Shown here one piece after another: positions 1 through 32,037 of a DNA stretch of 41,389 nucleotides. Below the pieces are notes generated by a model. It was not told where the DNA came from. It saw only the letters and a program-made list of their open reading frames with translations, and made no database searches. Both the position numbers and the translations under genes were made by a program. The DNA is from Bacteroidota bacterium. GTDB taxonomy: Bacteria > Bacteroidota > Bacteroidia > Bacteroidales > UBA7960. Numbering within the stretch: the first letter of the stretch is position 1; each line of letters begins with the position of its first letter. The stretch is taken from contig JAGXRQ010000005.1 of assembly GCA_018335675.1 (NCBI GenBank), forward strand, positions 1 to 41,389, written 5' to 3'.

Positions 1-138
1 GTTTTGTATCTTTCACAGTCTTGTCAATGGTAGATTAGTTTAATCGTTGAACCGTTGAATTGTTTAATTGCTAAAATGCTAAGCAACTAATTAAACATAA
101 AACGACTAAACGACTAAATAATTACCATAACCTTCTTT

Positions 139-248
<110 letters not shown>

Positions 249-258
249 CTTTTATTAA

Positions 259-13446: not shown

Positions 13447-16400
13447 ATGAAAAATCGAGTACAATTATTAATGAAAAGTTTTGCCGCATTTATGCTGGCA
13501 ATGTTTTTGGTTGTGCCAGCTTTCTCTCAAATACTGAAAGAAGGTACTTTACCAAGTATTAAGTACAACGTTCCTGACACCAAGGAAGTTGTTGATGTTC
13601 CTGTTAGCATTAACTGGGAACAGGTTCACAAAGAGGATGCGATCAACGCAGAGAACAAACTTCCTATGAGAGGTGGTTTTTCAGTTGAAGTTGGAAAAAG
13701 CATCAATGATTTTGGCGAATGGATGAGACTTCCTGACGGCAGAATGCTTTGGCGTGCTACTCTTAGAGCTGATGGTGCTCAATCTCTTGGTGTTGTATTT
13801 CACAACTTTCAATTACCTGAAGGTGCTGAACTGTGGACGTACAACAATGGTAAAGCTATGATTAATGGTGCACTTGGTATGCATAATAATCATGAATCTA
13901 AAATGTTAAGTACAAGAGTACTTTTCGGTAATACTATTACTATTGAGTATATTGAAACTCCTGCTAGTGGTAGCAATAGCTTCAATAGTTCTTCTGCTGC
14001 AGGCTCAACTCTTCGCGATTTGAATGCCTCAGAATCTATCGATATTAAAGGTTTGGAAATTAAAGAACCAAGACCATATAAGTCTAATGTTGATCTAATT
14101 GTATCAGAACTGATATATATATATCAGGATAACTATTCTATTTTTGACCAAAGCAAACCTGCGGATGGAGGTTCAGCAGCATGTCAGATTGACATTAAGT
14201 GTTCACCTGTTGGCGACCCTCATACTGACACAAGAAGAGCTATTGCACATACGTTGAATAAAATTGGTGCTAACTGGTATTATTGCTCTGGTGGCCTTCT
14301 TAACAATACTCTTGAAAACTGGACACCTTATTTTTATACTGCATGGCACTGCGGTGATGGTGCATCTGCTGCAGATAGAAACCAATGGCAGTTTTACTTT
14401 AACTATGAGCGCTCGGCTTGCGGTTCAGGTACATATTATAAAGCTGACGTAATGACAGGTTGTGTTCTTAGAGCAGTTGACCCAATTAGCGGTGGAGCTG
14501 ACCTATTGCTGGTTGAACTTAACAACTCTGTTCCTGCAGCATACAATCCCTACTTTAACGGATGGAACAGACAAGATGTTGCTTCTACTTCCGGAGCTGG
14601 TATTCACCACCCTGCAGGTGATGCAAAAAAGATTTCTACCTATTCTGCTACTTTGCAATCTGCAACTCCAACTATCAGCGGACAAACATTTGCTACTAAC
14701 GCTTCATGGCGTGTAGTATGGTCAGCAAACGCTAACGGACATGGTGTAACCGAAGGTGGTTCATCAGGATCTACTCTTTTAAATAATGCCTTACTTGCTG
14801 TTGGCAACTTATCAGGTGGTAGTTCTACTTGTGCGAGCCCTACTTCTGCAGACTTCTACGGAAAACTTGCTTATCAGTGGGATACTAAACCAAATGCAGA
14901 TCAGAAACTAAGACCTTGGTTAGACCCAGCAGGAACAAACCCTAACACTCATAGAGGTTGGGACCCAAAATGGACAACAAACCCACCGGTGGCTAACTTT
15001 ACAGCTACTCCTACAAATGCTCCGGCAGGTAGTGAAATTCAATTCACTTGTACTTCTACAAACGGACCAACTGAATGGGAATGGAATTTTGGGGCAAATG
15101 CTTTCCCTCAAACTTCTACAGCAAGAAATCCTAAAGTTGCATGGGTTACTCCAGGAACATACACTATTTCTCTTACTGTCAAAAATTCATACGGACAGAA
15201 TACTAATACAAAAACTGACTATATAACTATTACCACAGCTCCTGCTCCACCGGCTACAAACCCAGTTACAATAGGTGCAGGTACAACCGGTTCTATGCAT
15301 CCATTAGGTTATGATAGTAGAGTAGCAGGTGGAGCAAGATATGTGCGTAGCGCATCAATTTACACAGCAGCACAAATAGGTGGCGGTGGTTTAATAAGCC
15401 GTTTGGAGTATTTCACTAACACCGCTCAAACTTCCCCAAGAACTGTAACTATTTACTTGAAGCATACAACAGCAACTTCATTTACGGCTGCTGAAGCATA
15501 TAGTGCTTTGCTATCTGGCGCAACTCAGGTATATCAAGGATCTTTAACTCCATCTACGGCTGGTTGGCAGGTATTTAATTTAACCTCGAGTTTTATTTAT
15601 AACGGAACCAACAATTTAATGGTAATTGTTTTGGCCGATGGTTCAGCAGCTAACACAAATTCAAACGTTGGTACCAGGTATTCAACAGGTGCTGCAAATA
15701 CCCATCAGCAGTGGTCAGGTAATACTGATCCAATAGGTACAGGTACAAGAAACACTAACCTTCCAAATATTCGTATGACATTTGCTCCAAACACTGCTCC
15801 AGTTGCAAACTTTGGCGGTGCTGAAAGTATTTTCTTAGAAAATTTTGAAGGCGCATCTTTTCCTCCGACTAATTGGCTAATCAATAACGCTGATGCTGGT
15901 GGTAATACATGGGTTTCTTCAAGTGCTCAAAATAAAACCGATGGTGGAAGTAAATCTGCATCCCACCCATACCACGCAACCCAAACTGAAAATGGATACT
16001 TAATTACACCTCAGATTTCATTACCTGCAGGTTCAACGATTTATTTAAACTTTTGGTCTTTTAATGGTTATCCAACATGGTACGGCAAAAACAGCGTACT
16101 TATCTCTACAACAAATACCAATATAGCTTCATTTACTGAAATCTGGAGCCCGGCTGCTGTTGCAGAATCATGGGTAAACACCAATATTAGCTTATCGGCT
16201 TATGCCGGACAAAATGTTTACATCGCATTCCGCTATCAGGGTGCAGATGCTCATGACTGGTGGTTAGACGATGTTGCTATACAGGTCATAAATTCTAATC
16301 CGATTACAGTTTATGAAGGTGATCCTGTGTCTGTTTTTGATTTAAGTACAAACAATCCATTGTATTGGGATTGGACAACTACAGGTGCTTTAGTTTCTAA

Positions 16401-18927
16401 GCATTCTACAAAGGATTTAAATCTTCAGTATAATGTTGCTGGGCAATACCCCGTTAGCCTAAGAGTTGGTAATCCGGGTGGTACAAACACAAAAACTGTA
16501 AATAATTTTGTTACAGTTGTTGGTCGTGCTCCTATTGCTAATTTTAACGCTAAAGGAAACCTTAAAAACGAATTTTATCAGGCGTTTTCTCCTGTTGGTG
16601 GCTCAGTAGCATATACTGATCTTTCAACCAGAGTTCCTACTTCATGGAGTTGGTCGCTAACCGGTGGTAATCCATCAGCGCCAACAACCCAAAACCCGAC
16701 AGCAAGCTATGCTACTGCCGGCGAATATAATGTATCAATGACAGCAACCAATGCTCACGGAAATAATACAAAGAGCGTTGCTAAACAAGTTAAAATTGGT
16801 GGTGGTAATTTTGTAACCAACGACTTCCCTGAAGATTGGCCAATTTGGTACAACATGGCTCAGGGTAATCTTCCGGGCCATTGCGCTGCTGCTGACGGAA
16901 CAAAATATTTTACTGATTATGCAGAGTTTTATACAAATAGCCATGCAGGTCAAATTACTCACCTAAGAGTTGGTGTAGCTATTGCTAATGGTGCAGATAA
17001 AAACGTTGTGTTTAAAGTATGGGACGGAAGTACTGGAATTCCTGGAACTGTGTTAGGACAAAAAACTTTAGGAATTCCTACTTTAACTGCAGGACAATAT
17101 AATTTAATACAGTTTGATACTCCTGTTAACGTAACAGGTAATTTCTTTGTTGGATACACAATTACTTATGACGGTACACATAATTACACTACACATCAAT
17201 TCTGTAGTTTCTTAGCATTGGATCGTGGTTCAAACGGTGGTCCAAGTTCTGCATGGGGTAACATTGCTGCATTCGGTGGATGGGCTTCTATGAGCGACTG
17301 GATGGGAATGTCAACATCATTATATGTATGGCCTATGTTTACTTATGGAACAGCTCCTACATATTACAACCTAACATTTGCTAAAAACCCAACTAATGGT
17401 GGTGTTACTACTGCTAATACTGTTGCAACTGCAGGTCAAGTTGTTGAAGTGGGTGCTCAAGCATACAATGGCTGGGCATTTGTTGATTGGAGAGATGGTG
17501 GTACATTGTTAAGCACTAATCGTATATTTAATTATACTATGCCTGCTGCAAATAAAACTCTTACTGCTAACTTTTTAAAAGTTTGTGCTACACCAAGGCC
17601 ATACTATCAGTATTTCACTGGCTTAACTGCACTTCCAACCGATTGGACTTCTTCCGGAACACCTGCATGGACAGTTGGAACAGCTGCTGCTAATGGTTTA
17701 TCTGTGGGAGCTCCTTATGCATTTGCTACAATTACTGGTACTGCAGCAAACACATCGCATATGGTATCAGAGTGTTTCGATTTTGCAGGATACACTGATA
17801 TATCAATTGGTATGCGCCACAGGTTATTTATGGCTGCTGTTGGTAATGCAACTGGAACTTTGGCATATAGCATTAGTGGTGGAACGTGGACAACAATTGC
17901 TACATTTACTGCAATTGAAGAGAATTTAGCATATACATCGCCTGTTATTACAGCATTGGCCGGACAAAATAATGTGAGATTCAGATGGACATTTACTAAC
18001 AATGCTGTTGGTACAAACTCACAACGCCAATGGTGTATTGATAATATTGTCGTTACTGGTACTGTATCAGGAGCGCTTCTTGGAGATGTTAACGGTGACG
18101 GATTTATCAACGTTCTTGACATTGTTTGGATGGTAAGTCATCTTAATGGATCAACCCCAGTAGGTTTTGTAATGGAAGCTGCAGACGTTAATGCAGACAG
18201 TAGTGTTAACATCGCTGACTTAACTGCACTTATCAATTTAATTCTTGGTGGAGCAATGGGAGAACTTGAAGAAGTTAACTCAGAACCTGCTCATATGTAC
18301 CTTGAAGAAGGTGGTAATGTTCTTTTTGAAAGTGATGGAACTTTATTAGCTATTCAGTTTGCAATTAACAGCCCTGATTTAGCTAATATGAACATAGAAC
18401 TATTACTTGAAACAGATCACAAACTTGCATTTAACAATGAAAAAGGCCTTGGTATTATTTATAGTATGACAAATACAATAATTCCACAGGGAACTATTAA
18501 TTTGTTCAAAATTGATGGAGTTGATCTTTCTCAAGTTGAATGGGGTGTGGCATTAGCTTCAAATGTTGAACATAGAGTGGTTGATATATACACTTATAAT
18601 GCATACGAACAAGAGGCTACAAATATTGATCAAATAGTGGCTACAACTTCTGATTTTTCTGTATTCCCAAATCCAAATAAAGGTAACTTCTCAATTAAAT
18701 TAAATATTAAAGAAGCTGCTTATTTGCAAATGGATCTTCTTGATGAAAGAGGACGCTTTGTATCAAATACCGGACGCACATTATTTAATGCCGGCGAACA
18801 TGTAATTCAATACAACAATGTTCATAAACTAAATAACGGTGTTTATATTGTTAGAATTACCGGTTATGATGCTAACGGTCGCGCAATTGGAGTTAAACAC
18901 GAAGAGAAAATCATGATTGTTAAATAA
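13447..18927 (+). CDS. T9SS-secreted multidomain trypsin-like (lysyl endopeptidase-like) protease with PKD, cleaved-adhesin/MAM-like, InlB-like and dockerin modules
   Basis: ORF 1826 aa; signal peptide; TAWHC (His codon 14347), EGGSSGS (14755-14772), GADLLLVEL; PKD (PVANFTATP...GTYTISLTVKNSYG); ENFEGASFPPTNW; dockerin; C-terminal FPNPNKGNFSIKL...GVYIVRI. Confidence 0.9.
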   Translation: MKNRVQLLMKSFAAFMLAMFLVVPAFSQILKEGTLPSIKYNVPDTKEVVDVPVSINWEQVHKEDAINAENKLPMRGGFSVEVGKSINDFGEWMRLPDGRMLWRATLRADGAQSLGVVFHNFQLPEGAELWTYNNGKAMINGALGMHNNHESKMLSTRVLFGNTITIEYIETPASGSNSFNSSSAAGSTLRDLNASESIDIKGLEIKEPRPYKSNVDLIVSELIYIYQDNYSIFDQSKPADGGSAACQIDIKCSPVGDPHTDTRRAIAHTLNKIGANWYYCSGGLLNNTLENWTPYFYTAWHCGDGASAADRNQWQFYFNYERSACGSGTYYKADVMTGCVLRAVDPISGGADLLLVELNNSVPAAYNPYFNGWNRQDVASTSGAGIHHPAGDAKKISTYSATLQSATPTISGQTFATNASWRVVWSANANGHGVTEGGSSGSTLLNNALLAVGNLSGGSSTCASPTSADFYGKLAYQWDTKPNADQKLRPWLDPAGTNPNTHRGWDPKWTTNPPVANFTATPTNAPAGSEIQFTCTSTNGPTEWEWNFGANAFPQTSTARNPKVAWVTPGTYTISLTVKNSYGQNTNTKTDYITITTAPAPPATNPVTIGAGTTGSMHPLGYDSRVAGGARYVRSASIYTAAQIGGGGLISRLEYFTNTAQTSPRTVTIYLKHTTATSFTAAEAYSALLSGATQVYQGSLTPSTAGWQVFNLTSSFIYNGTNNLMVIVLADGSAANTNSNVGTRYSTGAANTHQQWSGNTDPIGTGTRNTNLPNIRMTFAPNTAPVANFGGAESIFLENFEGASFPPTNWLINNADAGGNTWVSSSAQNKTDGGSKSASHPYHATQTENGYLITPQISLPAGSTIYLNFWSFNGYPTWYGKNSVLISTTNTNIASFTEIWSPAAVAESWVNTNISLSAYAGQNVYIAFRYQGADAHDWWLDDVAIQVINSNPITVYEGDPVSVFDLSTNNPLYWDWTTTGALVSKHSTKDLNLQYNVAGQYPVSLRVGNPGGTNTKTVNNFVTVVGRAPIANFNAKGNLKNEFYQAFSPVGGSVAYTDLSTRVPTSWSWSLTGGNPSAPTTQNPTASYATAGEYNVSMTATNAHGNNTKSVAKQVKIGGGNFVTNDFPEDWPIWYNMAQGNLPGHCAAADGTKYFTDYAEFYTNSHAGQITHLRVGVAIANGADKNVVFKVWDGSTGIPGTVLGQKTLGIPTLTAGQYNLIQFDTPVNVTGNFFVGYTITYDGTHNYTTHQFCSFLALDRGSNGGPSSAWGNIAAFGGWASMSDWMGMSTSLYVWPMFTYGTAPTYYNLTFAKNPTNGGVTTANTVATAGQVVEVGAQAYNGWAFVDWRDGGTLLSTNRIFNYTMPAANKTLTANFLKVCATPRPYYQYFTGLTALPTDWTSSGTPAWTVGTAAANGLSVGAPYAFATITGTAANTSHMVSECFDFAGYTDISIGMRHRLFMAAVGNATGTLAYSISGGTWTTIATFTAIEENLAYTSPVITALAGQNNVRFRWTFTNNAVGTNSQRQWCIDNIVVTGTVSGALLGDVNGDGFINVLDIVWMVSHLNGSTPVGFVMEAADVNADSSVNIADLTALINLILGGAMGELEEVNSEPAHMYLEEGGNVLFESDGTLLAIQFAINSPDLANMNIELLLETDHKLAFNNEKGLGIIYSMTNTIIPQGTINLFKIDGVDLSQVEWGVALASNVEHRVVDIYTYNAYEQEATNIDQIVATTSDFSVFPNPNKGNFSIKLNIKEAAYLQMDLLDERGRFVSNTGRTLFNAGEHVIQYNNVHKLNNGVYIVRITGYDANGRAIGVKHEEKIMIVK
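17362..17580 (+). other. Divergent InlB-type repeat domain inside the protease
   Basis: YYNLTFAKNPTNGGVTTANTVATAGQVVEVGAQAYNGWAFVDWRDGGTLLSTNRIFNYTMPAANKTLTANF. Confidence 0.75.
18082..18252 (+). other. Type I dockerin domain in the protease
   Basis: GDVNGDGFINVLDIVWMVSHLN...ADVNADSSVNIADLTALINLILGG: two F-hand loops with D1/N3/D5/N9/D12 pattern. Confidence 0.92.
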
Positions 18928-18970
18928 TGATTAGCGCGAAAAAACAGAATATCAATTTATATTGCACAGC

Positions 18971-19006
18971 ATTAACTATTCAGGGTATTTTCCCTGAATA
19001 GTTAAT
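18971..19006 (+). terminator. Strong hairpin (15-bp perfect stem, 6-nt loop) between the protease and stalk genes
   Basis: attaactattcaggg-tatttt-ccctgaatagttaat followed by gtctttt. Confidence 0.8.
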
Positions 19007-19092
19007 GTCTTTTGTGTGTAAAGATTTAAGTATGAAAATAATTAACACTATCACACTACTAAATAATTAAACTATAACTAATCAAACATTTT

Positions 19093-22000
19093 ATGAAAAC
19101 AAAAAAACAATTTATCTTTCTGACAGCGTTGTTTTTGATGTTATTTAGTGTTTCGGCAGTAAAAAGCCAAAACACTTTGTCAATAAATAACGTTACCGGT
19201 TGTACATCTACAACTGCTACAATTCAGGTTGTCATGAACAATGCGTTACCTGTGGTAGCATTCCAGATGGATGTACCATTGCCTACTGGTTTTACTTATG
19301 TAGGTAGTTCAATTGCCTTATTAAGGGGAACTGCTAATCATAGTATTAGCGCCAGTATCATAGGCACAAATACATTAAGAATTTTGAGTTATTCTAATCC
19401 TGTAACTGCATATACTGGCAGCACAGGAATTATAGCAACATTTCAGGTAACACTACCTGGTGCTGCAGGCTCACATGCTCTTAATATTCAAAATGCAATT
19501 CTTTCAGATGCATCCGGAGCAAACATTATTTCCGGAACAGTTGGCGGTACAGCTACTGTTAATGCAGTACCTGCGCAGCCATCTGTTATTACAGGTGCAA
19601 CAAACCCATGTCAGGGTTCATCACAAGTATATAGTGTAACCAACGTTGCAGGTGTAACATACAACTGGACATTTCCAGCAGGCTGGACACAAACAGCCGG
19701 TGGAACAACCAATTCTGTTACTGTAACTGTTGGAGCAAACGCTGGAAACGTAACTGTGACTCCATCAAATGCTTGCGGTAACGGCACAGCACAGACGCTT
19801 GCAGTTACTGTGAATACAGTTCCCGCACAACCATCTGTTATTACAGGTGCAACAAACCCTTGTTTGGGCTCTTCTCAAGTTTATAGTGTAACTAACGTTG
19901 CAGGAGTAACCTACAACTGGACATTCCCAGCAGGCTGGACACAAACAGCCGGTGGTACAACTAACTCTGTTACTGTAACTGTTGGAGCAAACGCAGGTAA
20001 CGTATCTGTGACTCCATCAAATGCTTGCGGTAACGGTACAGCTCGCACACTTGCAGTTACTGTAAATACAGTTCCTGCACAGCCATCTGCAATTACAGGT
20101 GCAACAAACCCATGTCAAACTTCTTCTCAAGTTTATAGTGTAACCAACGTTGCAGGTGTAACCTACAACTGGACATTCCCAGCAGGTTGGACACAAACAG
20201 CCGGAGGTACAACTAACTCTGTTACAGTAACAGTTGGAGCCGGTACAGGAAACGTAACCGTAACACCATCTAATATTTGCGGTAATGGAACAGCAAGTAC
20301 ACTTGCAGTAACTGTAAACACAGTACCTGCGCAGCCATCCGTTATTACAGGAGCAACAACTCCATGTCAGGGTTCGTCTCAAGTATATAGTGTAACTAAC
20401 GTTGCTGGTGTAACATACAACTGGACATTCCCAGCAGGCTGGACACAAACAGCGGGTGGAACAACCAACTCTGTTACTGTTACAGTAGGAGCGGGTTCAG
20501 GTAACGTATCTGTTACTCCATCTAATATTTGCGGAAACGGTACAGCACGTACACTTGCAGTAACTGTTACTACAGTACCTGCACAACCATCTGCAATTAC
20601 AGGTGCAACAAACCCATGTCAAACTTCTTCTCAAGTTTATAGTGTAACCAACGTAGCAGGTGTAACATACAACTGGACATTCCCAGCAGGATGGACACAA
20701 ACAGCCGGTGGTACAACTAACTCAGTTACTGTAACTGTTGGAGCAAGCGGCGGAAACGTGAGCGTAACTCCATCAAATGCTTGCGGTAACGGTACAGCTC
20801 AGACGCTTGCAGTTACTGTAAATACAGTTCCTGCACAGCCATCTGTTATTACAGGTGCTACAACACCTTGCGAAACTTCTTCACAAGTATATAGTGTAAC
20901 CAACGTTGCAGGTGTAACCTACAACTGGACATTCCCAGCAGGTTGGACACAAACAGCGGGTGGAACAACCAACTCTGTTACTGTAACAGTTGGAGCGGGT
21001 TCAGGAAACGTATCTGTAACCCCATCAAATGTTTGCGGTAACGGTACAGCAAGTACACTTGCAGTAACAACTACTGCAGTTCCTGCACAGCCTTCTGTTA
21101 TCACAGGAGCAACTACTCCATGTCAAGGTACATCACAAGTATATAGTGTAACCAACGTTGCAGGTGTGACCTACAACTGGACTTTCCCTGCAGGCTGGAC
21201 ACAAACAGCCGGTGGAACAACAAACTCTATTACTGTAACAGTAGGAGCGGGTTCAGGAAACGTAACTGTTACTCCATCGAATGCCTGCGGTAATGGCACA
21301 GCTCGTTCACTTGCGGTTACTGTAAGCACAGTGCCTGCTCAACCATCTGTAATTACCGGAGCAGCAACACCTGCTTTTGGTACTTCACAAGTATATAGTG
21401 TAACAAACGTTGCAGGTGTAACCTACAACTGGACTTACCCTGCAGACTGGACTCAAACAGCCGGTGGAACAACTAACTCTGTGACTGCAACTGTTGGTAT
21501 TCAATCTGGAAACATTACAGTAACTCCGTCAAATGTTTGCGGTAATGGCACAGCTCGTACTTTAGCCGTAGCTCCTGTAAAAGGAACGCCTACAATTACA
21601 TGGCCAACTGCTACAGCAATTACTTACGGAGCACAACTTTCAGCAGCTACTCTTTCAGGTGGTTCTGCTGAATATCTTGGTAGTCCTGTACCGGGTACAT
21701 TTACATATCTAAGCCCAACATTTGTTCCTAATGCTGGAACGTATGTTGCAAGTGTTAGATTTACACCTACAGATACCGACAGATATAATACTGTTGATGG
21801 TACTGTTAACGTAACAGTTAATGCCAGAGCATTGACGCTTACAGCTAACGCACAATCTAAAGTATATGGAGATGCAGATCCTGTATTTACTTATGCAATT
21901 ACAACTGGTTCATTATATGGTACTGATGTATTAGTTGGGACACCTACAAGAATTTTAGGTCAAAATGTTGGAAACTATGCAATTAACCAAGGCACTGTTG

Positions 22001-25000
22001 CAGCTTCTCCAACTCCTGCTAACTATGTAATTACATGGGTAAGTGCAAACCTTACTATCACAGCTCGTCCTATTACAGTTACTGCAGACGCAGGTCAAAG
22101 CAAAGTTTATGGTGATGCAAACCCTGTTTATACATATACAGCTCCTGCTTTGCAATTTACTGACACATGGACAGGTGCATTAGCACGCGCTGCAGGTGAA
22201 AACGTTGGTTCATATGCTATCAATATTGGCACTTTAGCTCCTTCTGCTCCAGGTAACTATACTGTAACTTTTGTAGGCGCAAACTTTGCAATTACTCCTA
22301 AAGCTATTACAGTTACAGCAAACTCAGGACAAACAAAAGTTTATGGTGCTGTAGACCCAACTTTCACTTATACTGCTTCAGGTGTTATTGGTGGTGATAC
22401 TCCATCAGGAGCTCTTGCACGTACTGCAGGTCAGAACGTTGGAACATACCCAATAAACATTGGAACTCTTTCTTATGGTGCAAACTATACAATTACATTT
22501 GTAGCAGCTAACTTCACCATTACACAAAGAGCATTAACAATTACAGCTAATGATATTACCAAAACAGTTGGTATCCTTTACACATTTACCGGAACAGAAT
22601 TTACTCACGGTACTTTGTATTACAGTGATGCTGTTACAAGTGCTACAATTACAAGTACAGGTGCTCCTGCAGGTGCTGCAGTTGGTACTTATCCGATTGT
22701 AATTAGTGCTGCTGTTGGAGCAGGTCTTGCGAACTATAATATCAGCTATGTAAATGGTACTCTCACAGTTCAAGACCTTATACCTCTAACACTTGATGGT
22801 GCTGTTGCATCAAATAAAGTGTATGATGGTAATTCTAATGCAACTATTACAAGTTGGGGTACTTTATCAGGTGTTCAAGGTGGCGATGTTGTAACTATAA
22901 ATACTGCTGCTGCATCAGCTGCGTTTAACAACAAAAACGTTGGTGTAGGTAAAACAGTTACTTTGTCTAATGTTATTCTTGATGGTCCGGATGCATACAA
23001 GTACTATCTTGTTACTCCAACAACCACGGCTAATATTACTCAGAGAACCTTAACTCTAAGTACATTTACAGCAAACAACAAAGTTTATGACCGCACAACT
23101 GATGTTACAGGAACTGGTTTCTCTGATAACCGTATCGGTGGTGATGTTTTGACATTTACATTTACTGCTGCATTTGCTGATTTCAACGTTGGTGTTGGCA
23201 AAACTGTTAACTACACAGGAATTGCAATTTCAGGTGGTACTGATGCAGGAAACTATGTTCTTGCTAGTACAGTGGGTTCAACTACTGCTAATATTACTCC
23301 AAGACCTATTACTGTTACAGCTACTGCTCAATCTAAAGTTTATGGCGATGCTGATCCAGTATTAACGTATACGGTAACAGGATTAATTGCTCCGGACGCA
23401 ATGTCGGGCGCATTAACACGTGTTGCAGGCGAGAATATTGGCGCTTATGCAATTCAGCAAGGTACTCTAACTGCTGGTGCAAACTATACAATATCTTATA
23501 CCGGTGCAAACCTTACAATTACAGCTAAGGCTATTACAGTAACAGCTGAGGCTAAAACAAAAGTTTATGGACAGGTTGACCCTGCTCTTACTTATGTTGT
23601 TGTAGGTCTTGTAGGTGGCGACACTATGTCAGGTGCATTAACACGCGCAGCTGGTAATAACGTTGGTACATATGCAATTCTTCAGGGAACTCTTACTGCA
23701 GGTAGCAACTATACTATTACTTATACAGGTGCAAACTTTACAATTACACCTAAAGGTCTTACAGTAACAGCAGAAGCGAAAACTAAAGTTTATGGACAGA
23801 TAGATCCTGCTTTAACTTACGTTGTAACAGGTTTAGAAACCGGCGACTCTATGTCAGGTGCACTTACACGTGTAGCTGGTAACAACGTCGGAGTCTACGC
23901 TATTCAGCAAGGAACTTTAACTGCCGGTGCAAACTATACTATTAACTATACAGGCGCTAACTTTACAATTACAGCTAAGCCTATTACAGTTACAGCAAAT
24001 GCTCAATCTAAAGTTTATGGTTCTGCAGATCCTGCATTAACTTACGTTGTTGCAGGTTTAGAAACAGGTGACTCAATGTCAGGTGCACTTACACGTGCTG
24101 CCGGAGAAAACATTGGAACATATGCTATCAACCAAGGAACATTAACAGCCGGAGCTAACTATACAATTACTTATAACGGCGCATTGTTAACAATTACCGC
24201 TAAAGCTCTTACAGTAACAGCTGAGGCTAAAACTAAGGTTTATGGACAAGTTGATCCTGCATTAACTTATGTTGTAACAGGTTTAGAAACAGGCGACTCT
24301 ATGTCAGGTGCACTTACACGTGTTGCCGGCAACAACGTTGGAGTTTACGCTATTCAGCAAGGAACTTTAACTGCCGGCGCAAACTATACTATCACGTATG
24401 TTGGTGCTAACTTTACAATTACTGCTAAGCCTATTACAGTAGCTGCAAATGCTCAAACGAAAGTTTATGGACAAGCTGATCCTGCTTTAACTTATGTTGT
24501 AACTGGATTAGAAACAGGCGACTCTATGTCAGGTTCGCTTACACGTGTTGCCGGTGAAAACGTTGGAACATACGCTATCAACCAAGGAACATTGACTGCA
24601 GGCGGTAACTATACTATTACTTATACTGGTGCAAACTTTACTATTACTGCAAAAGTTCTTACAATTACAGCAAACAATATCACTAAGATATTCGGTGAAA
24701 CTTATACCTTCACAGGAACTGAGTTCTCATCTGTAGGCTTAATTGGTACAGACGCTGTTACAAGCGCAACTATTACAAGTACAGGTGCTCCTGCAGGTGC
24801 TGCAGTTGGTACTTATCCTATTGTAATTAGTGCTGCAGTTGGTACAGGTTTATCTAACTATAGTATCACATATGTAAACGGTACTATGACAGTTGAGAAT
24901 AAAATCTTGCTAACTATTTCAGGCCTTACTGCTAATAACAAACCTTATGACAGCAATAACACAGCAACAATTTCTAGCTATGGCACTTTAGTTGGTGTTC

Positions 25001-28000
25001 AAAGTGGTGATGTTGTTACTTTAGTAACTACAAGTGCTGTTGCTACATTTAACAACAAGAATGTTGGAGATGGTAAAACTGTTACTGTAACAGGACTAAC
25101 CCTTGGAGGAGCAGATGCTAACAAATATACAATTGCTAGTAGTCACACTACTACTGCAAATATTACTGTTAGAACTGTAACTTTGTTTGCTTTTACTGCT
25201 AGTAATAAAGTTTACGATCGCACCACTGCTGCTACAGGAACTGGTTTCTCTGATGACCGCGTAGCTGGTGATGTGTTAACATTTACTTATACAGCTGCAT
25301 TTGACAATTTCAATGTTGGTGTTGGTAAAACTGTTAACTATACAGCAATTGCAATTTCCGGTGGTACTGATGCAGGTAACTATACTTTAGCTTCAACTAC
25401 CGGTTCAGCAACCGCTAATATTACACCAAGACCGATTACAGTTACAGCTGATGCTAAAACAAAAGTTTATGGCGACTCTGACCCTACATTAACATATATT
25501 GTATCGGGCTTAATTGCTCCGGATGCTATGTCAGGTGCATTAACACGTGTTGCCGGCGAAAACGTTGGTACATGGGCAATTCAGCAAGGTACTTTAACTG
25601 CTGGTGCTAACTATACTATTACTTACACTGGTGCTAACCTAACAATTACGCCGAAAGCAATTACAGTTACAGCTAACTCAGGCCAAACTAAAGTTTATGG
25701 TGCTGCTAATCCTGTATATACTTATACTGCTTCAGGTGTTGTTGGTGGAGATACTCCAACAGGTGCATTAGCTCGTACAGCCGGAGAGAATATTGGAACA
25801 TACCCAATCAATATTGGAACATTAAGTTATGGTGCTAACTATACAGTAACATTTGTTGCAGCTAACTTTACAATTACTGCCAAGCCAATTACGGTTACTG
25901 CTGAAGCTAAGTCTAAAGTTTACGGACAAGTTGACCCTGCTTTAACTTATGTTGTTGTAGGTCTTGTTGGTGGCGACACTATGTCAGGAGCTCTTACACG
26001 TGTTGCAGGTGAAAACATTGGTACTTATGCAATTCAGCAAGGTACTCTTACGGCCGGAACTAACTACACCATTACTTATACAGGTGCATTATTAACAATT
26101 ACTGCTAAGTCAATTACAGTAACTGCTGATGCAAAAACAAAAGTTTATGGTGATGTTGACCCGGCTCTTACTTATGTTGTAACCGGATTAGAAACTGGTG
26201 ACTCTATGTCAGGGGCACTTACACGTGTTGCAGGTAATAACATTGGTACTTATGCAATTCAGCAAGGTACTCTAACAGCTGGTTCTAACTACACAATCAA
26301 CTATGTTGGTGCTAACTTTACAATTACTGCAAAAGCTATTACAGTAACAGCTAACTCAGGTCAAACTAAGGTTTATGGAGCTGCTGATCCTGTATTTACT
26401 TATACCGCAGTAGGTGTTGTTGGTGCAGACGCTCCAACAGGTGCACTTAGCCGTGTTGCTGGTAATAACGTTGGAACATACGCTATTACTATTGGAACTT
26501 TAAGCTATGGTGCTAACTATACTATTACATTTGTTTCTGCGAATTTCACAATTACTGCTAAGTCAATTACAGTAACTGCTGATGCTAAATCTAAAGTTTA
26601 TGGCTCAGCTGACCCTGCTTTAACTTACGTTGTAACAGGATTAGAAACTGGCGACTCAATGTCAGGCGCTCTTACACGTGTTGCAGGAACTAACGTTGGT
26701 ACTTATGCAATTCAACAAGGTACTCTAACTGCCGGTGCAAACTATACTATTAACTATGTTGGTGCATTACTTACAATTACTGCTAAGTCAATTACAGTAA
26801 CTGCTGATGCAAAAACAAAAGTTTATGGTGAAGTTGATCCTGCTCTTACTTATGTTGTAACCGGATTAGAAACTGGCGATTCAATGTCAGGTGCTCTTTC
26901 ACGTGCTGCAGGTTCAAACGTAGGTACATATGCTATTCTTCAAGGTACACTATCTGCTGGTGCTAACTACACTATTAACTATGTAGGCGCTAACTTAACA
27001 ATTACAGCAAAAGCGATTACAGTTACTGCAAATGCCGGTCAAACTAAAGTTTACGGCTCTGCTGATCCTGTATTTACTTATACTGCAGTAGGTGTTGTTG
27101 GTGCTGATGCTCCATCAGGTGCGTTAAGCAGAGTTACTCCTTCTGTTCAAACAGTTGGAACATATGCTATTACTCAAGGTACTTTAACATATGGTGCTAA
27201 CTATACTATTACTTTTGTTTCTGCAGACTTTACAATTACTGCTAAAGCTCTTACAGTAACTGCAAATAATAGAACTAAATCTGTTGGTCAAACACTTACA
27301 TTCTTAGGTACTGAGTTTACAACTGCAGGCTTGGTATTTGCTGACGAAGTAACTAGTGCAACTATTACAAGTACAGGTGCTCCTGCAGGTGCTGCAGTTG
27401 GTACTTATCCTATCGTAATTAGTGCTGCTGTTGGTACAGGATTAACTAACTATACTATCAGTTATGTAAATGGCACTCTTACTGTTGCTGACCTTATTGA
27501 GCTTTCTCTTACAGGCTTAACAGCCAACAATAAAGTTTATGACGCAACTTCAACAGCTACAATTTCTAACTATGGTACTTTAACCGGAGTTCTGGGTGGT
27601 GATGTTGTAACTCTTGTTACAACAGGCTCTACAGCTGCATTCAACAATAAGGTTGTTGGAAACGGCAAACAAGTTATTGTTGTTGGCTTAAGCCTTGCAG
27701 GTGCAGATGCTCATAAATATTTTATTGACAACCAAACTACAACTGCAAACATTACTCCTAAAGATTTAACACTTAGCTCATTTACAGCAAGTAATAAGAT
27801 TTATGACGGAACAACTAGTGTTACAGGCACGGGATTCTCTGATGACCGCCTTGGAACTGATGTTCTTAACTTTACTTTCACTGCTGCATTTGTTGACAGG
27901 AATGTTGGAGTTGGTAAAAATGTTAATTATACCGGTATTACAATTTCTGGTGGCGTTGACGCAGGAAACTACAATCTTGTTACAACAAGTGGTACAGCTA

Positions 28001-31000
28001 CTGCTAACATTACTCCAAGAACATTGAATATTGAAGCAGTTGCTGTTTCTAAAGTTTATGGTGATGCTGATCCTGCATTTACATACACTATTATTTCCGG
28101 ATTACAATCCGGTGATGATGCAACTATTGTAACAGGAACTTTAACACGTGTTGCAGGCGAAGATGTTGGTACTTATGCAATCCAAGTTGGAACTCTAACT
28201 GCTGGTACAAACTATGCTATCAACTTTATCTCTCGTAACTTGACTATTACACCAAAAGCAATCACCGTAACTGCAGATGCTGGCCAAACTAAAGTTTATG
28301 GTTCAGCTGATCCTGTGTTTACTTTCGTTGCCACAGGTGTTGTTGGTGCTGATGCTCCTACAGGTGCATTAAGTCGCGCTTCAGGTAATGACGTTGGAAC
28401 GTATGCCATTACTTTAGGTACTTTAAGCTACGGTGGTAATTACACCATAACATTCGTATCTGAATTGTTTACGATAACTCCTAAAGCTATTACAGTAACT
28501 GCGGATGGTAAATCTAAAGTTTACGGTTCTGCTGATCCTGCTCTTACATATGTTGTTACCGGACTTGAATTCGGCGATGCTATGTCAGGTACACTTACAC
28601 GTGTTGCCGGTGAAGATGTTGGTACTTATGCAATTCAGCAAGGTACTCTAACTACTGGTGCTAACTATACTATTACTTATGTAGGTGCTAATTTATCTAT
28701 TACAGCAAAAGAAATCTTTGTTTATGCTGATGCAAAAACTAAGGTTTATGGTGCAGCAGATCCTGCATTAACTTATGCTGTTGTTGGATTGGTTGGTGGC
28801 GACTTATTATCAGGAGCACTAGCTCGTGCAGCAGGTGAAAATGTTGGCGTTTACGCTATTAACATTGGAACTTTAACCGGCGGAGCTAATTATACAATTA
28901 ACTTCACTCCTGAGGACCTTACTATCACTCCAAGAGGTTTAACTGTTACAGCCAATAACGCTATTAAAGTCTTCGGACAGACATTAGTGTTTGATGGAAC
29001 AGAATTTACTCATGGAGCGCTATCCTTTACGGATGAAGTAACAAGTGTTACATTAACAAGTGCTGGAGCTGACGCAGCTGCTGCTGTTGGTACATACCCA
29101 ATAGAACCTTCTGCTGCTGTTGGTGTTGGACTTGGTAACTATAACATTTCTTATGTAAATGGAGTCTTAACGATTACTGACAAGATTATACTTACTATTT
29201 CAGGACTAACTGCTGACAATAAAGTTTATGATGGTTACACTGATGCTACAATCAGCAACTTTGGTTCATTAGTAGGTGTTATTGGTAGTGATGATGTTAC
29301 TCTTGACACTGATGCTGCAGTAGCATTCTTCTCAAACAAGAATGTTGCAAATGGCAAAGTTGTTACTGTAACAGGTCTTATTCTTGACGGTGTTGATGCA
29401 GATAAGTATATTCTTGCAGCAACTCATTTCACTAATGCTGATATTACAGTTCGTTCTCTTGCATTAAGCAACTTTACCGCTGATGATAAAGTTTATGACG
29501 GTGGCATAACTGTTGCCGGAACAGGCTTTGACAATGACGTTCTTATAGGAGATGTTGTTGAGTTCTCATATACCGCACAGTTTGAAGATAAAAATGTTGG
29601 AGTTGACAAAAATGTTAACTATACCGGCATTGCAATCTCAGGCGGTACAGATATGAACAATTACAACCTTGCTACTGCTACAGGTACAGCTATTGCTAGC
29701 ATTACTGCTAGAGAAGTTACTATCGGTGGTACATTTACAGTTCTTGATAAAGTTTATGATGGAACTACTGCTGCTGTTATTTCTAACAATAATCTAATAT
29801 TGTTAGGTGCAATAGGTGGTGATTTTGTTAACCTTGCCAATGTAATTGCTGAGTTTGAATCAGCTGATATAAACACAGATATTACTGTGAATATTGTTAG
29901 CGCTGATTTGGATGGCGGCGACAAAGACAACTATTCATTATCACTTCTTGGTGCTCCTACAGCTACTGCTGACATTTTCGAACCTGAATATACTCTTACA
30001 CTTCTTGTAAACCCTGTTGATGCAGGTGTTGTTACAGGAGCTGGAGTTTATTTTGCAGGAACAGATGTTGACATTACTGCTGCTGTACTTGGAGAGTATG
30101 TGTTTGTTAAATGGACTAATGCTCTTGGAGTAGTAGTTAGTATTTTACCTGACTTCACATATACAATGCCGGCGAATAATGTTACTTTAACAGCTAACTT
30201 CATGGCTATTGACGACTTTGAAGTTATTGTTAATATTGTTCCGGTTGATGGTGGCTTTGTTACCGGTGCAGGATTCTATGCTGCAGGTGCTGATGTTACT
30301 CTTACAGCTACTCCGGAAATTGGCTACTACTTTGTTAACTGGACTGATACAGACGACATTGAAGTAACCGCTGATATTGAGTATACATTTACAATGCCTG
30401 ATCATAATGTTGAATTGAACGCAAACTTCGCTCAATATACTTATACACTTTCATTAATGGTTAATCCGGAAAATGCAGGTATTGTTACAGGTGAAGGCGT
30501 TTATGTAGCTGGTTTAGAAATTGAAATTACTGCAGCTGCTGAAGTAGGATTCGAATTTGTTAACTGGACTACAGATTTAGGTGTAGAAGTTAGCAATCAA
30601 TCTAACTTTACTTACACAATGCCAGCTGAAGACGTAACTCTTATAGCTAACTTCAAAGTTGAAGGACAATATGAAGTTATAGTTGTTGTTGTTCCTGAAG
30701 AAGGTGGTGTTGTTACAGGTGCAGGTTTCTACTTTGAAAATGACGAAGTTGTTATTGAAGCTGTTGCTAACTTAGGTTACACGTTTGTAAGCTGGGAAGT
30801 TGATGGAACAGTTGTTGAAACAGCTGAAACATACACATTCAATATGATGGCTGAAGACATCACTGTTACCGCAAACTTTGAAGCTAATTTCTATGAAATC
30901 ATTCTAATTTCTAGTCCTGCAGGTGCTGGTGTTCTTACAGGTGCAGGTTCTTACATATTTGGAACAGAAGTAGAAATTTCTGCAGTTGCTAATGAAGATT

Positions 31001-32037
31001 GGAAATTTGTTAACTGGATATTAGGCGGAGAAATTATCAGCGTTGATGCTACATTTAATTATGTTGTTACTGCTGCTAATGTTAATCTATATGCTATATT
31101 CGTTTCTGAAAACGAGTACGAGGTTACTATTACTGTTGTTCCTGAAGAAGGTGGTTCAGTAGCCGGTGCCGGTTGGTATGAATTAGGTACTGATGTTGAA
31201 GTACAAGCTACTGCTAATGCTGGTTATACTTTCATTGGCTGGGAACTTAATGGTGCTACAGTTGAAACTGCAACTACTTATACATTCACAATGCCTGAAG
31301 AAGATGTGAACTTAATTGCAAAATTTGAAATTAATGTTCATACTCTAACTCTTGTAGCAAATCCTGCTGCAGGTGGTACTTTAAGTGGTGGTGGTAACTA
31401 CGCAGTTGGAACAGTTGTTCCTGTGTCTGCTACACCGGCAGCTAACTATAGTTTCGTTCGCTGGACAATCGGCGCAACAGTTGTTAGTACAAGCGCAAGC
31501 TTCAACTACACAATGCCTGATAACAATGTTACATTAACTGCTAACTTCGAAGTTATTCCTGATCCTACTTATACTCTTACCGTTGTTGCTGATCCTGAAG
31601 AAGGTGGAAGCGTAACTGGTGGTGGTGAATATGAAGCAGGTACTTCTGTTACAGTTATTGCAACTGCTAATGCTAACTTCACATTTACTGGTTGGTATCT
31701 TGGTGGAACTCTTGTTAGTGAAGCATCATCATTCACTTTCAATATGCCTGCTGAGAATATTACATTAGTTGGTAAGTTTGGAACAGTTAATGTTAACGAT
31801 CCTTCTATCTTTAACGTAAGTCTATATCCAAATCCATCAAAAGGAAATGTTATAATTACTTCTGATAGGATTATTACTGAAGTTAAAGTATATGACATGA
31901 TTGGTAAAGTTGTTCATACTGCTCAACCTGATGCTGCGGTTATTGACCTTATGCTAAATGTTGAACCTGGTATGTACTTCGTAAGAATTTACACTCAAGC
32001 CGGTCAGTCAACTATTAAACTACAAATTACTAAATAA
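19093..32037 (+). CDS. Giant T9SS-secreted modular surface protein (cohesin-like, 8 PKD-like, MBG/YDG array, 8 InlB repeats, T9SS type A sorting domain)
   Basis: Single uninterrupted 4314-aa ORF; signal peptide MKTKKQFIFLTALFLMLFSVSAVKSQ; modules by internal repeat reading; C-terminal LYPNPSKGNVIITSDRIITEVKVYDMIGKVV...GMYFVRIYTQAGQSTIKLQITK. Confidence 0.93.
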   Translation: MKTKKQFIFLTALFLMLFSVSAVKSQNTLSINNVTGCTSTTATIQVVMNNALPVVAFQMDVPLPTGFTYVGSSIALLRGTANHSISASIIGTNTLRILSYSNPVTAYTGSTGIIATFQVTLPGAAGSHALNIQNAILSDASGANIISGTVGGTATVNAVPAQPSVITGATNPCQGSSQVYSVTNVAGVTYNWTFPAGWTQTAGGTTNSVTVTVGANAGNVTVTPSNACGNGTAQTLAVTVNTVPAQPSVITGATNPCLGSSQVYSVTNVAGVTYNWTFPAGWTQTAGGTTNSVTVTVGANAGNVSVTPSNACGNGTARTLAVTVNTVPAQPSAITGATNPCQTSSQVYSVTNVAGVTYNWTFPAGWTQTAGGTTNSVTVTVGAGTGNVTVTPSNICGNGTASTLAVTVNTVPAQPSVITGATTPCQGSSQVYSVTNVAGVTYNWTFPAGWTQTAGGTTNSVTVTVGAGSGNVSVTPSNICGNGTARTLAVTVTTVPAQPSAITGATNPCQTSSQVYSVTNVAGVTYNWTFPAGWTQTAGGTTNSVTVTVGASGGNVSVTPSNACGNGTAQTLAVTVNTVPAQPSVITGATTPCETSSQVYSVTNVAGVTYNWTFPAGWTQTAGGTTNSVTVTVGAGSGNVSVTPSNVCGNGTASTLAVTTTAVPAQPSVITGATTPCQGTSQVYSVTNVAGVTYNWTFPAGWTQTAGGTTNSITVTVGAGSGNVTVTPSNACGNGTARSLAVTVSTVPAQPSVITGAATPAFGTSQVYSVTNVAGVTYNWTYPADWTQTAGGTTNSVTATVGIQSGNITVTPSNVCGNGTARTLAVAPVKGTPTITWPTATAITYGAQLSAATLSGGSAEYLGSPVPGTFTYLSPTFVPNAGTYVASVRFTPTDTDRYNTVDGTVNVTVNARALTLTANAQSKVYGDADPVFTYAITTGSLYGTDVLVGTPTRILGQNVGNYAINQGTVAASPTPANYVITWVSANLTITARPITVTADAGQSKVYGDANPVYTYTAPALQFTDTWTGALARAAGENVGSYAINIGTLAPSAPGNYTVTFVGANFAITPKAITVTANSGQTKVYGAVDPTFTYTASGVIGGDTPSGALARTAGQNVGTYPINIGTLSYGANYTITFVAANFTITQRALTITANDITKTVGILYTFTGTEFTHGTLYYSDAVTSATITSTGAPAGAAVGTYPIVISAAVGAGLANYNISYVNGTLTVQDLIPLTLDGAVASNKVYDGNSNATITSWGTLSGVQGGDVVTINTAAASAAFNNKNVGVGKTVTLSNVILDGPDAYKYYLVTPTTTANITQRTLTLSTFTANNKVYDRTTDVTGTGFSDNRIGGDVLTFTFTAAFADFNVGVGKTVNYTGIAISGGTDAGNYVLASTVGSTTANITPRPITVTATAQSKVYGDADPVLTYTVTGLIAPDAMSGALTRVAGENIGAYAIQQGTLTAGANYTISYTGANLTITAKAITVTAEAKTKVYGQVDPALTYVVVGLVGGDTMSGALTRAAGNNVGTYAILQGTLTAGSNYTITYTGANFTITPKGLTVTAEAKTKVYGQIDPALTYVVTGLETGDSMSGALTRVAGNNVGVYAIQQGTLTAGANYTINYTGANFTITAKPITVTANAQSKVYGSADPALTYVVAGLETGDSMSGALTRAAGENIGTYAINQGTLTAGANYTITYNGALLTITAKALTVTAEAKTKVYGQVDPALTYVVTGLETGDSMSGALTRVAGNNVGVYAIQQGTLTAGANYTITYVGANFTITAKPITVAANAQTKVYGQADPALTYVVTGLETGDSMSGSLTRVAGENVGTYAINQGTLTAGGNYTITYTGANFTITAKVLTITANNITKIFGETYTFTGTEFSSVGLIGTDAVTSATITSTGAPAGAAVGTYPIVISAAVGTGLSNYSITYVNGTMTVENKILLTISGLTANNKPYDSNNTATISSYGTLVGVQSGDVVTLVTTSAVATFNNKNVGDGKTVTVTGLTLGGADANKYTIASSHTTTANITVRTVTLFAFTASNKVYDRTTAATGTGFSDDRVAGDVLTFTYTAAFDNFNVGVGKTVNYTAIAISGGTDAGNYTLASTTGSATANITPRPITVTADAKTKVYGDSDPTLTYIVSGLIAPDAMSGALTRVAGENVGTWAIQQGTLTAGANYTITYTGANLTITPKAITVTANSGQTKVYGAANPVYTYTASGVVGGDTPTGALARTAGENIGTYPINIGTLSYGANYTVTFVAANFTITAKPITVTAEAKSKVYGQVDPALTYVVVGLVGGDTMSGALTRVAGENIGTYAIQQGTLTAGTNYTITYTGALLTITAKSITVTADAKTKVYGDVDPALTYVVTGLETGDSMSGALTRVAGNNIGTYAIQQGTLTAGSNYTINYVGANFTITAKAITVTANSGQTKVYGAADPVFTYTAVGVVGADAPTGALSRVAGNNVGTYAITIGTLSYGANYTITFVSANFTITAKSITVTADAKSKVYGSADPALTYVVTGLETGDSMSGALTRVAGTNVGTYAIQQGTLTAGANYTINYVGALLTITAKSITVTADAKTKVYGEVDPALTYVVTGLETGDSMSGALSRAAGSNVGTYAILQGTLSAGANYTINYVGANLTITAKAITVTANAGQTKVYGSADPVFTYTAVGVVGADAPSGALSRVTPSVQTVGTYAITQGTLTYGANYTITFVSADFTITAKALTVTANNRTKSVGQTLTFLGTEFTTAGLVFADEVTSATITSTGAPAGAAVGTYPIVISAAVGTGLTNYTISYVNGTLTVADLIELSLTGLTANNKVYDATSTATISNYGTLTGVLGGDVVTLVTTGSTAAFNNKVVGNGKQVIVVGLSLAGADAHKYFIDNQTTTANITPKDLTLSSFTASNKIYDGTTSVTGTGFSDDRLGTDVLNFTFTAAFVDRNVGVGKNVNYTGITISGGVDAGNYNLVTTSGTATANITPRTLNIEAVAVSKVYGDADPAFTYTIISGLQSGDDATIVTGTLTRVAGEDVGTYAIQVGTLTAGTNYAINFISRNLTITPKAITVTADAGQTKVYGSADPVFTFVATGVVGADAPTGALSRASGNDVGTYAITLGTLSYGGNYTITFVSELFTITPKAITVTADGKSKVYGSADPALTYVVTGLEFGDAMSGTLTRVAGEDVGTYAIQQGTLTTGANYTITYVGANLSITAKEIFVYADAKTKVYGAADPALTYAVVGLVGGDLLSGALARAAGENVGVYAINIGTLTGGANYTINFTPEDLTITPRGLTVTANNAIKVFGQTLVFDGTEFTHGALSFTDEVTSVTLTSAGADAAAAVGTYPIEPSAAVGVGLGNYNISYVNGVLTITDKIILTISGLTADNKVYDGYTDATISNFGSLVGVIGSDDVTLDTDAAVAFFSNKNVANGKVVTVTGLILDGVDADKYILAATHFTNADITVRSLALSNFTADDKVYDGGITVAGTGFDNDVLIGDVVEFSYTAQFEDKNVGVDKNVNYTGIAISGGTDMNNYNLATATGTAIASITAREVTIGGTFTVLDKVYDGTTAAVISNNNLILLGAIGGDFVNLANVIAEFESADINTDITVNIVSADLDGGDKDNYSLSLLGAPTATADIFEPEYTLTLLVNPVDAGVVTGAGVYFAGTDVDITAAVLGEYVFVKWTNALGVVVSILPDFTYTMPANNVTLTANFMAIDDFEVIVNIVPVDGGFVTGAGFYAAGADVTLTATPEIGYYFVNWTDTDDIEVTADIEYTFTMPDHNVELNANFAQYTYTLSLMVNPENAGIVTGEGVYVAGLEIEITAAAEVGFEFVNWTTDLGVEVSNQSNFTYTMPAEDVTLIANFKVEGQYEVIVVVVPEEGGVVTGAGFYFENDEVVIEAVANLGYTFVSWEVDGTVVETAETYTFNMMAEDITVTANFEANFYEIILISSPAGAGVLTGAGSYIFGTEVEISAVANEDWKFVNWILGGEIISVDATFNYVVTAANVNLYAIFVSENEYEVTITVVPEEGGSVAGAGWYELGTDVEVQATANAGYTFIGWELNGATVETATTYTFTMPEEDVNLIAKFEINVHTLTLVANPAAGGTLSGGGNYAVGTVVPVSATPAANYSFVRWTIGATVVSTSASFNYTMPDNNVTLTANFEVIPDPTYTLTVVADPEEGGSVTGGGEYEAGTSVTVIATANANFTFTGWYLGGTLVSEASSFTFNMPAENITLVGKFGTVNVNDPSIFNVSLYPNPSKGNVIITSDRIITEVKVYDMIGKVVHTAQPDAAVIDLMLNVEPGMYFVRIYTQAGQSTIKLQITK
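19171..19566 (+). other. Cohesin-like domain at the N-terminus of the giant protein
   Basis: TLSINNVTGCTSTTATIQVVMNNALPVVAFQMDVPLPTGFTYVGSSIALLRG...LRILSYSNPVTAYTGSTGIIATFQVTLPGAAGSHALNIQNAILSDASGANI fits the cohesin pattern of alternating strands. Confidence 0.75.
19567..21582 (+). repeat. 8 tandem PKD/Ig-like repeats, exactly 252 bp (84 aa) each
   Basis: VPAQPS starts at 19567, 19819, 20071, 20323, 20575, 20827, 21079, 21331; consensus VPAQPSVITGATxPCxxSSQVYSVTNVAGVTYNWTFPAGWTQTAGGTTNSVTVTVGA..GNVTVTPSNxCGNGTA. Confidence 0.97.
22528..23301 (+). repeat. Cassette 1: MBG-variant + YDG-a + YDG-b (774 bp)
   Basis: RALTITANDITKTVG... to ...STTANITP. Confidence 0.9.
24652..25428 (+). repeat. 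Cassette 2: MBG-variant + YDG-a + YDG-b (777 bp)
   Basis: KVLTITANNITKIFG... to ...SATANITP. Confidence 0.9.
25429..27243 (+). repeat. MBG block with three-domain higher-order repeat, 678-bp period
   Basis: GQTKVYG-type modules start at 25654, 26332 and 27010 (spacing 678 and 678 bp); flanking modules at 25429, 26107 and 26785 have the same spacing. Confidence 0.9.
27244..28017 (+). repeat. Cassette 3: MBG-variant + YDG-a + YDG-b (774 bp)
   Basis: KALTVTANNRTKSVG... to ...TATANITP. Confidence 0.9.
28933..29709 (+). repeat. Cassette 4: MBG-variant + YDG-a + YDG-b (777 bp), most diverged
   Basis: RGLTVTANNAIKVFG... to ...AIASITA. Confidence 0.88.
29980..31797 (+). repeat. 8 divergent InlB-type repeats
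   Basis: Repeated YxLTxxxNPxxGGxVTGxGxYxxGTxVxxTAxAxxxYxFVxWxxxGxxVSxxxxFTYTMPxxNVTLTANF. Confidence 0.88.
31807..32034 (+). other. T9SS type A C-terminal sorting domain
   Basis: FNVSLYPNPSKGNVIITSDRIITEVKVYDMIGKVVHTAQPDAAVIDLMLNVEPGMYFVRIYTQAGQSTIKLQITK. Confidence 0.92.

Follow-up and report, generated by a model that had tools for sequence, protein, structure and literature searches.

In the clostridial cellulosome, with its CipA-type scaffoldin, the enzymes carry dockerins and a non-catalytic protein carries the cohesins. The locus described here shares this arrangement, the cohesin fold, and the dockerin family, but it belongs to Bacteroidota and has a T9SS tail in place of Firmicute anchoring, one cohesin per scaffold, and proteases instead of cellulases. 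Cohesins also occur outside cellulosomes, and those of Archaeoglobus fulgidus (2xdh) and Clostridium perfringens NagJ (2jh2/2w1n) are among the nearest structures to the cohesin examined below; these are archaeal and Firmicute proteins, which are not known to contain T9SS tails or MBG stalks. The gingipains and PPAD of Porphyromonas gingivalis represent the same enzyme families (C25 and PAD_porph) as several enzymes discussed here and likewise carry T9SS tails. The P. gingivalis cargo depends on the C-terminal domain (CTD) and a lipopolysaccharide anchor, whereas several homologues in the present system have a terminal dockerin that replaces or accompanies the CTD. In 2021, a cellulosome-like complex was proposed, from sequence only, for Ca. 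Stygibacter (Cloacimonadota), with dockerin-bearing peptidases of the C25 gingipain-like and S8 types, a cohesin scaffold, and a C-terminal surface-attachment domain of the T9SS type (PMC8542988). Its own features are a single 3755-aa scaffoldin, tandem cohesins, CBMs, and GH18/GH57 enzymes (PMC8542988). Bacteroidetes genomes have been stated to lack cohesins and dockerins (PMC5831590), and, in a cockroach-gut study, single-cell genomes of Bacteroidales were reported to have dockerins without cohesins (PMC10266427). We found nothing relevant in the literature on dockerins in soda-lake Bacteroidales.

We analyzed a 41,389-nucleotide stretch of a Bacteroidota genome, referred to as the window, in which two neighboring genes on the forward strand encode a dockerin protein and a cohesin protein. 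The first gene (13447–18927) encodes a secreted lysyl-endopeptidase-like protease of 1826 aa, as judged from the open reading frame and the Pfam architecture. Its domains comprise PKD, Cleaved_Adhesin, Flg_new_2, a dockerin, a domain that we call X, and a T9SS tail, with X being recognized by our own profile and the others by Pfam. The catalytic domain (14170–14967) is an S1 lysyl-endopeptidase-like domain, homologous to Achromobacter protease I in phmmer searches against the PDB (4nsy, E 3.4e-32; 1arb, E 3.9e-27), and these matches back the assignment made in an earlier note on this DNA. Candidate His/Asp/Ser motifs can be read in the sequence as TAWHC, ADLLL, and GGSSGS. The T9SS type A sorting domain lies at 18661–18864 (PF18962, E 8.8e-9 in the genome search and 5.2e-7 in the whole-protein scan).

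The protease dockerin (18079–18249) is of type I. The dockerin I HMM comparison that the earlier note had proposed matched Pfam PF00404 (Dockerin_1) with E 2e-13, and the genome scan gave 50.2 bits over 18079–18246. Both Ca2+-binding repeats are present as two DxNxDxxxNxxD loops within 18082–18252 (GDVNGDGFINVLDIVWMVSHLNG.../DVNADSSVNIADLTALINLILGG), so that the description as a textbook type I dockerin holds. Among solved structures, the nearest in sequence is CaDoc0917, a dockerin of C. acetobutylicum (6kg9, E 1.9e-7), to which the modelled window dockerin (pLDDT about 97) superposes with an rmsd of 0.8 Å.

The second gene (19093–32037, forward strand) encodes a giant stalk protein of 4314 aa, with an N-terminal cohesin and a C-terminal T9SS tail. 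Its signal peptide, read by eye, spans about 26 aa (MKTKKQFIFLTALFLMLFSVSAVKSQ, 19093–19170) and is directly followed by the cohesin domain (19171–19566). Pfam then delineates 8 PKD_6 repeats of about 84 aa each (19567–21579, placed by the unit starts), a stalk of 25 MBG_2 and 9 YDG repeats (21580–29979), and 8 Flg_new_2 (InlB B-repeat-like) repeats (29980–31785), with the boundaries of the latter two blocks being approximate. The T9SS type A sorting domain is found at 31822–32028 (PF18962, E 4.2e-11); both the protease and the stalk thus bear the T9SS tails that had been read from the sequence.

The junction of the two genes contains a terminator-like hairpin on the forward strand (18970–19007; 16-bp stem, T-rich tail), which was absent from the earlier note. 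Its folding energy is −31.5 kcal/mol, with a z value of −8.4 against shuffled sequences. A terminator-like structure of this strength implies that the protease and stalk genes may not be co-expressed, and they are likely transcribed separately, although their order is conserved. No Rfam RNA was found at the junction; the sole Rfam match reported is a 5S rRNA at the left edge of the window (138–249).

The cohesin identity of 19171–19566 was settled by profiles and the predicted fold, not by single-sequence searches. The HMM comparison proposed for this domain was only partly successful, as the sequence alone matched no Pfam cohesin and no PDB entry, and NCBIfam gave nothing useful, whereas a family profile built from a 42-sequence alignment did find cohesins in the PDB: 5n5p (3.6e-6), 6kgc (1.7e-4, over positions 3–129), and then 2jh2 and 2xdh. 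PF00963 is matched individually by 17 of the 42 aligned relatives (best 5.4e-11), and some relatives pass the Pfam Cohesin threshold (28.7 bits versus a cut-off of 24.1) over positions 3–138, nearly the whole model. The window domain is therefore placed in the family through its homologues and not directly. A single paralogue in the same genome, on contig C75, is about 50% identical and scores E 0.032 against Pfam Cohesin (15.7 bits, below the cut-off). The AlphaFold2 model of the window domain (pLDDT 97.9) has the cohesin beta-sandwich fold; in a Foldseek search against the PDB, the first 39 neighbors listed are cohesins or cohesin-bearing chains, and the best match is 6kgc (E 1.1e-8, TM 0.82). 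A generic Ig/BACON fold, the contrary outcome named beforehand, was ruled out by these neighbors, and the cohesin-patterned domain noticed behind the signal peptide is a cohesin. One solved complex (6kgc–6kgf) is among the nearest structures of both the window dockerin and the window cohesin.

The genome itself (3.36 Mb, 98% complete) encodes 12 dockerin proteins above the cut-off, the yield of the search for further dockerins that had been suggested, and two detectable cohesins. Each of the two cohesins tips a T9SS-sorted repeat stalk, with a single cohesin per stalk, and in both cases the gene immediately upstream encodes a dockerin protein; in the second pair, on contig C75, the cohesin stalk gene follows a gene for a C25 gingipain-like dockerin protease. 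Across about eleven genomes, this one included, a same-strand dockerin gene lies 71–241 bp upstream of 13 cohesin genes, the near-identical cassettes on the contigs of genomes G028 and G004 being counted once. Counterexamples exist in G023:C84, G035:C466, and G008:C101, where the cohesin genes have no upstream dockerin neighbor. The window cohesin has relatives in 12 of the 13 dockerin-bearing genomes as against 17 of all 47 genomes of the same taxonomic family (Fisher p 1.3e-6, a value that ignores phylogeny); the thirteenth dockerin genome (G017) has PF00963 cohesin matches in its place. The pairing of dockerin and cohesin genes is not due to chance.

Across the phylum, the window cohesin family is rare and patchy, occurring in 9 genomes of 395 sampled. 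Some relatives carry 2–4 tandem cohesins of this family, as in scaffoldins. One protein (G009:C136, L128:2378–3895) combines a cohesin, a dockerin, X, and a T9SS tail in an adaptor-scaffoldin-like layout. The cassettes of G028:C152/C224 and G004:C170 are near-identical in genomes placed in different genera, reflecting either recent transfer or misbinning. Additionally, a Neomarinimicrobiota protein (L062:8453–11500) contains four domains that are distantly related to the cohesin domain.

The dockerin-bearing enzymes of this genome are the lysyl-endopeptidase-like protease of the window, the C25 gingipain-like protease with a propeptide (C75), trypsin-like and S8 enzymes (C95), M14 and Endonuclease_1 enzymes (C52), an S51-like enzyme (C97), and a PAD_porph enzyme (C133). 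The relatives add M6, more C25, S8, and M14 enzymes, trypsin, and PAD. Several dockerin proteins have no recognized catalytic domain, and none of those scanned has a glycoside hydrolase domain over its cut-off. A cargo of proteases, PAD, and nuclease with no glycoside hydrolase marks the system as proteolytic or scavenging rather than cellulolytic, in agreement with its earlier description as proteolytic and non-cellulosomal. The plant-cell-wall enzymes of a cellulosome are not found among the dockerin proteins of this genome, nor is a scaffoldin with several cohesins; there is one per stalk here, and up to four in the relatives. The genome also encodes 82 T9SS tails and SprA, and the Por_Secre_tail domains sit at the C-termini, as in T9SS cargo.

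The earlier note made no mention of domain X (18268–18645, forward strand), a segment of about 115 aa between the dockerin and the T9SS tail in proteins that have both. Among 45 distinct dockerins surveyed, 20, including that of the window protease, are followed by X and then the T9SS tail; in another 20, the protein ends within 0–9 residues of the dockerin. Domain X was unmatched in the Pfam scans of the dockerin proteins, and its cohesin fold was recognized with our A4 profile, a structural model, Foldseek, and hhalign. Leaving dockerin-only chains aside, the first 11 PDB matches of X in Foldseek are cohesins (E 1.5e-4 to 8.3e-4), with modest TM values that are normalized to the whole chain, and hhalign against the cohesin family alignment gave 91.6%. 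When the dockerin and X were modelled together, the pLDDT was 92.0 and the pTM 0.86, which for two domains and a loose tail suggests a defined dockerin–X arrangement. One of the dockerin matches, the PDB entry 8x39 (Serine protease), contains a double dockerin and not a dockerin–X pair.

By the A4 profile, X is largely confined to dockerin proteins, and a dockerin precedes it in nearly every case. In this genome, X stands alone just once, as a 133-aa open reading frame with a signal peptide (L025:8993–9394, contig C79); the gene 50 bp upstream of it encodes a dockerin protein that lacks a T9SS tail. We considered that this upstream gene might be a frameshifted dockerin + X + CTD gene and rejected the idea, as the downstream X is an intact open reading frame that has a start and a signal peptide of its own and appears to be a genuine gene in its own right. 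The linkage of X to dockerins, including the free-standing copy, points to a partner or stabilizer of the dockerin, acting in cis or in trans.

The best reading of these data, with a probability of roughly 0.7, is in our view a cohesin–dockerin system by which this T9SS-bearing member of the Bacteroidota docks enzymes that are secreted and mostly proteolytic. The stalk would be exported by Sec and T9SS, and its C-terminal tail would hold it at the cell surface, unless the stalk is released; with the tail at the surface, the MBG/YDG repeats would place the N-terminal cohesin far from the membrane. About 12 dockerin enzymes, the adjacent protease among them, would bind the stalk cohesin specifically and in a Ca2+-dependent manner and be held at the tip, and the second stalk (C75) would be paired likewise with its C25 gingipain-like protease. 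Such a device could serve the scavenging of protein, and perhaps of DNA. The earlier proposal of a protease docked on the neighboring stalk is upheld for the identities of the dockerin and the cohesin, but less so for the exclusiveness of the pair. With one cohesin per stalk and 12 dockerin proteins, the adjacent protease need not be the only or main partner. Docking would also add nothing to its anchorage if its own T9SS tail were linked to lipopolysaccharide, and the neighboring X might occupy its dockerin in cis.

Taken further, the last point yields an alternative in which X sits on the dockerin of its own chain, stabilizing it or masking it during T9SS export, and the main clients of the stalk cohesin are CTD-less dockerin enzymes and not the adjacent protease. 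The near restriction of X to dockerin proteins, its resemblance to cohesins, the modelling of dockerin and X as a single unit, and the lone secreted X encoded next to a dockerin gene all speak for it. We nevertheless regard it as unlikely, since the dockerin sequence hardly differs between proteins that have X and those that lack it, as in the tandem genes of contig C95, and the genes of the dockerin + X + CTD type (type A) directly adjoin cohesin genes.

The dockerins without a T9SS tail (loci L018, L019, L020, L021, L022, L025, and relatives) raise a concrete question, namely by which route these enzymes exit the cell. In one case (C52, L020:2001–5972), tandem M14 carboxypeptidase paralogues are 65% identical over 503 aa, and one ends in a T9SS tail while the other ends in a dockerin. 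The tail-less dockerin enzymes of this genome have signal peptides, as judged by eye, and no lipobox was seen in them. They may cross the outer membrane as passengers on a tailed cohesin protein. A joint reading, in which the tail-less enzymes are co-secreted via the tailed cohesin and X masks the dockerin of the tailed enzymes until they are outside, is in our estimate quite doubtful; a literature search on T9SS piggyback export found nothing relevant. If true, it would make the cohesin–dockerin pair a T9SS co-secretion adaptor, beyond a surface dock.

Modules with the cohesin fold can have other partners when they occur outside cellulosomes, and the dockerin–cohesin binding is so far a prediction; the dockerin could be a Ca2+-stabilized spacer in front of the T9SS tail, and the domains with the cohesin fold could be ordinary beta-sandwiches, with no mutual binding. 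We judge this highly improbable, as it leaves the gene pairing at many loci and the strong co-occurrence without a reason, and in nearly half of the dockerins there is no T9SS tail that would need a spacer. That the cohesin instead binds the dockerin of another cell or species, giving the stalk a role in adhesion or in the capture of foreign enzymes, would suit a very long stalk with just one cohesin at its distal end and the busy surface suggested by the 82 T9SS tails, but it is the least credible account in a genome with 12 dockerins of its own, on average 65% identical, two of which adjoin the two cohesins.

The docking system that we favor is of a known kind. The pair had been put forward as a new system; peptidases with dockerins and a cohesin-bearing scaffold that ends in a sorting domain occur here as already proposed for Ca. 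Stygibacter (PMC8542988), and a Cloacimonadota MAG contig (L061) encodes a member of the window cohesin family with 39% identity to the window query. The Bacteroidota version differs in having two stalks with one tip cohesin each, no CBM, no GH over the cut-off, and a dockerin often followed by domain X and a T9SS tail. What distinguishes it is thus its occurrence in Bacteroidota, the single-cohesin MBG stalks, the conserved protease–cohesin gene pair, domain X, and the alternation of CTD and dockerin. X is a new domain and a candidate dockerin cap, and the cohesin, dockerin, and X domains are small and amenable to in vitro work. Much as cellulases are docked in cellulosomes, protein-digesting enzymes are probably docked on the surface of this bacterium, and the recurrence of the pairing in one Bacteroidota family, tied to T9SS, would extend cohesin–dockerin assembly to surface proteolysis.
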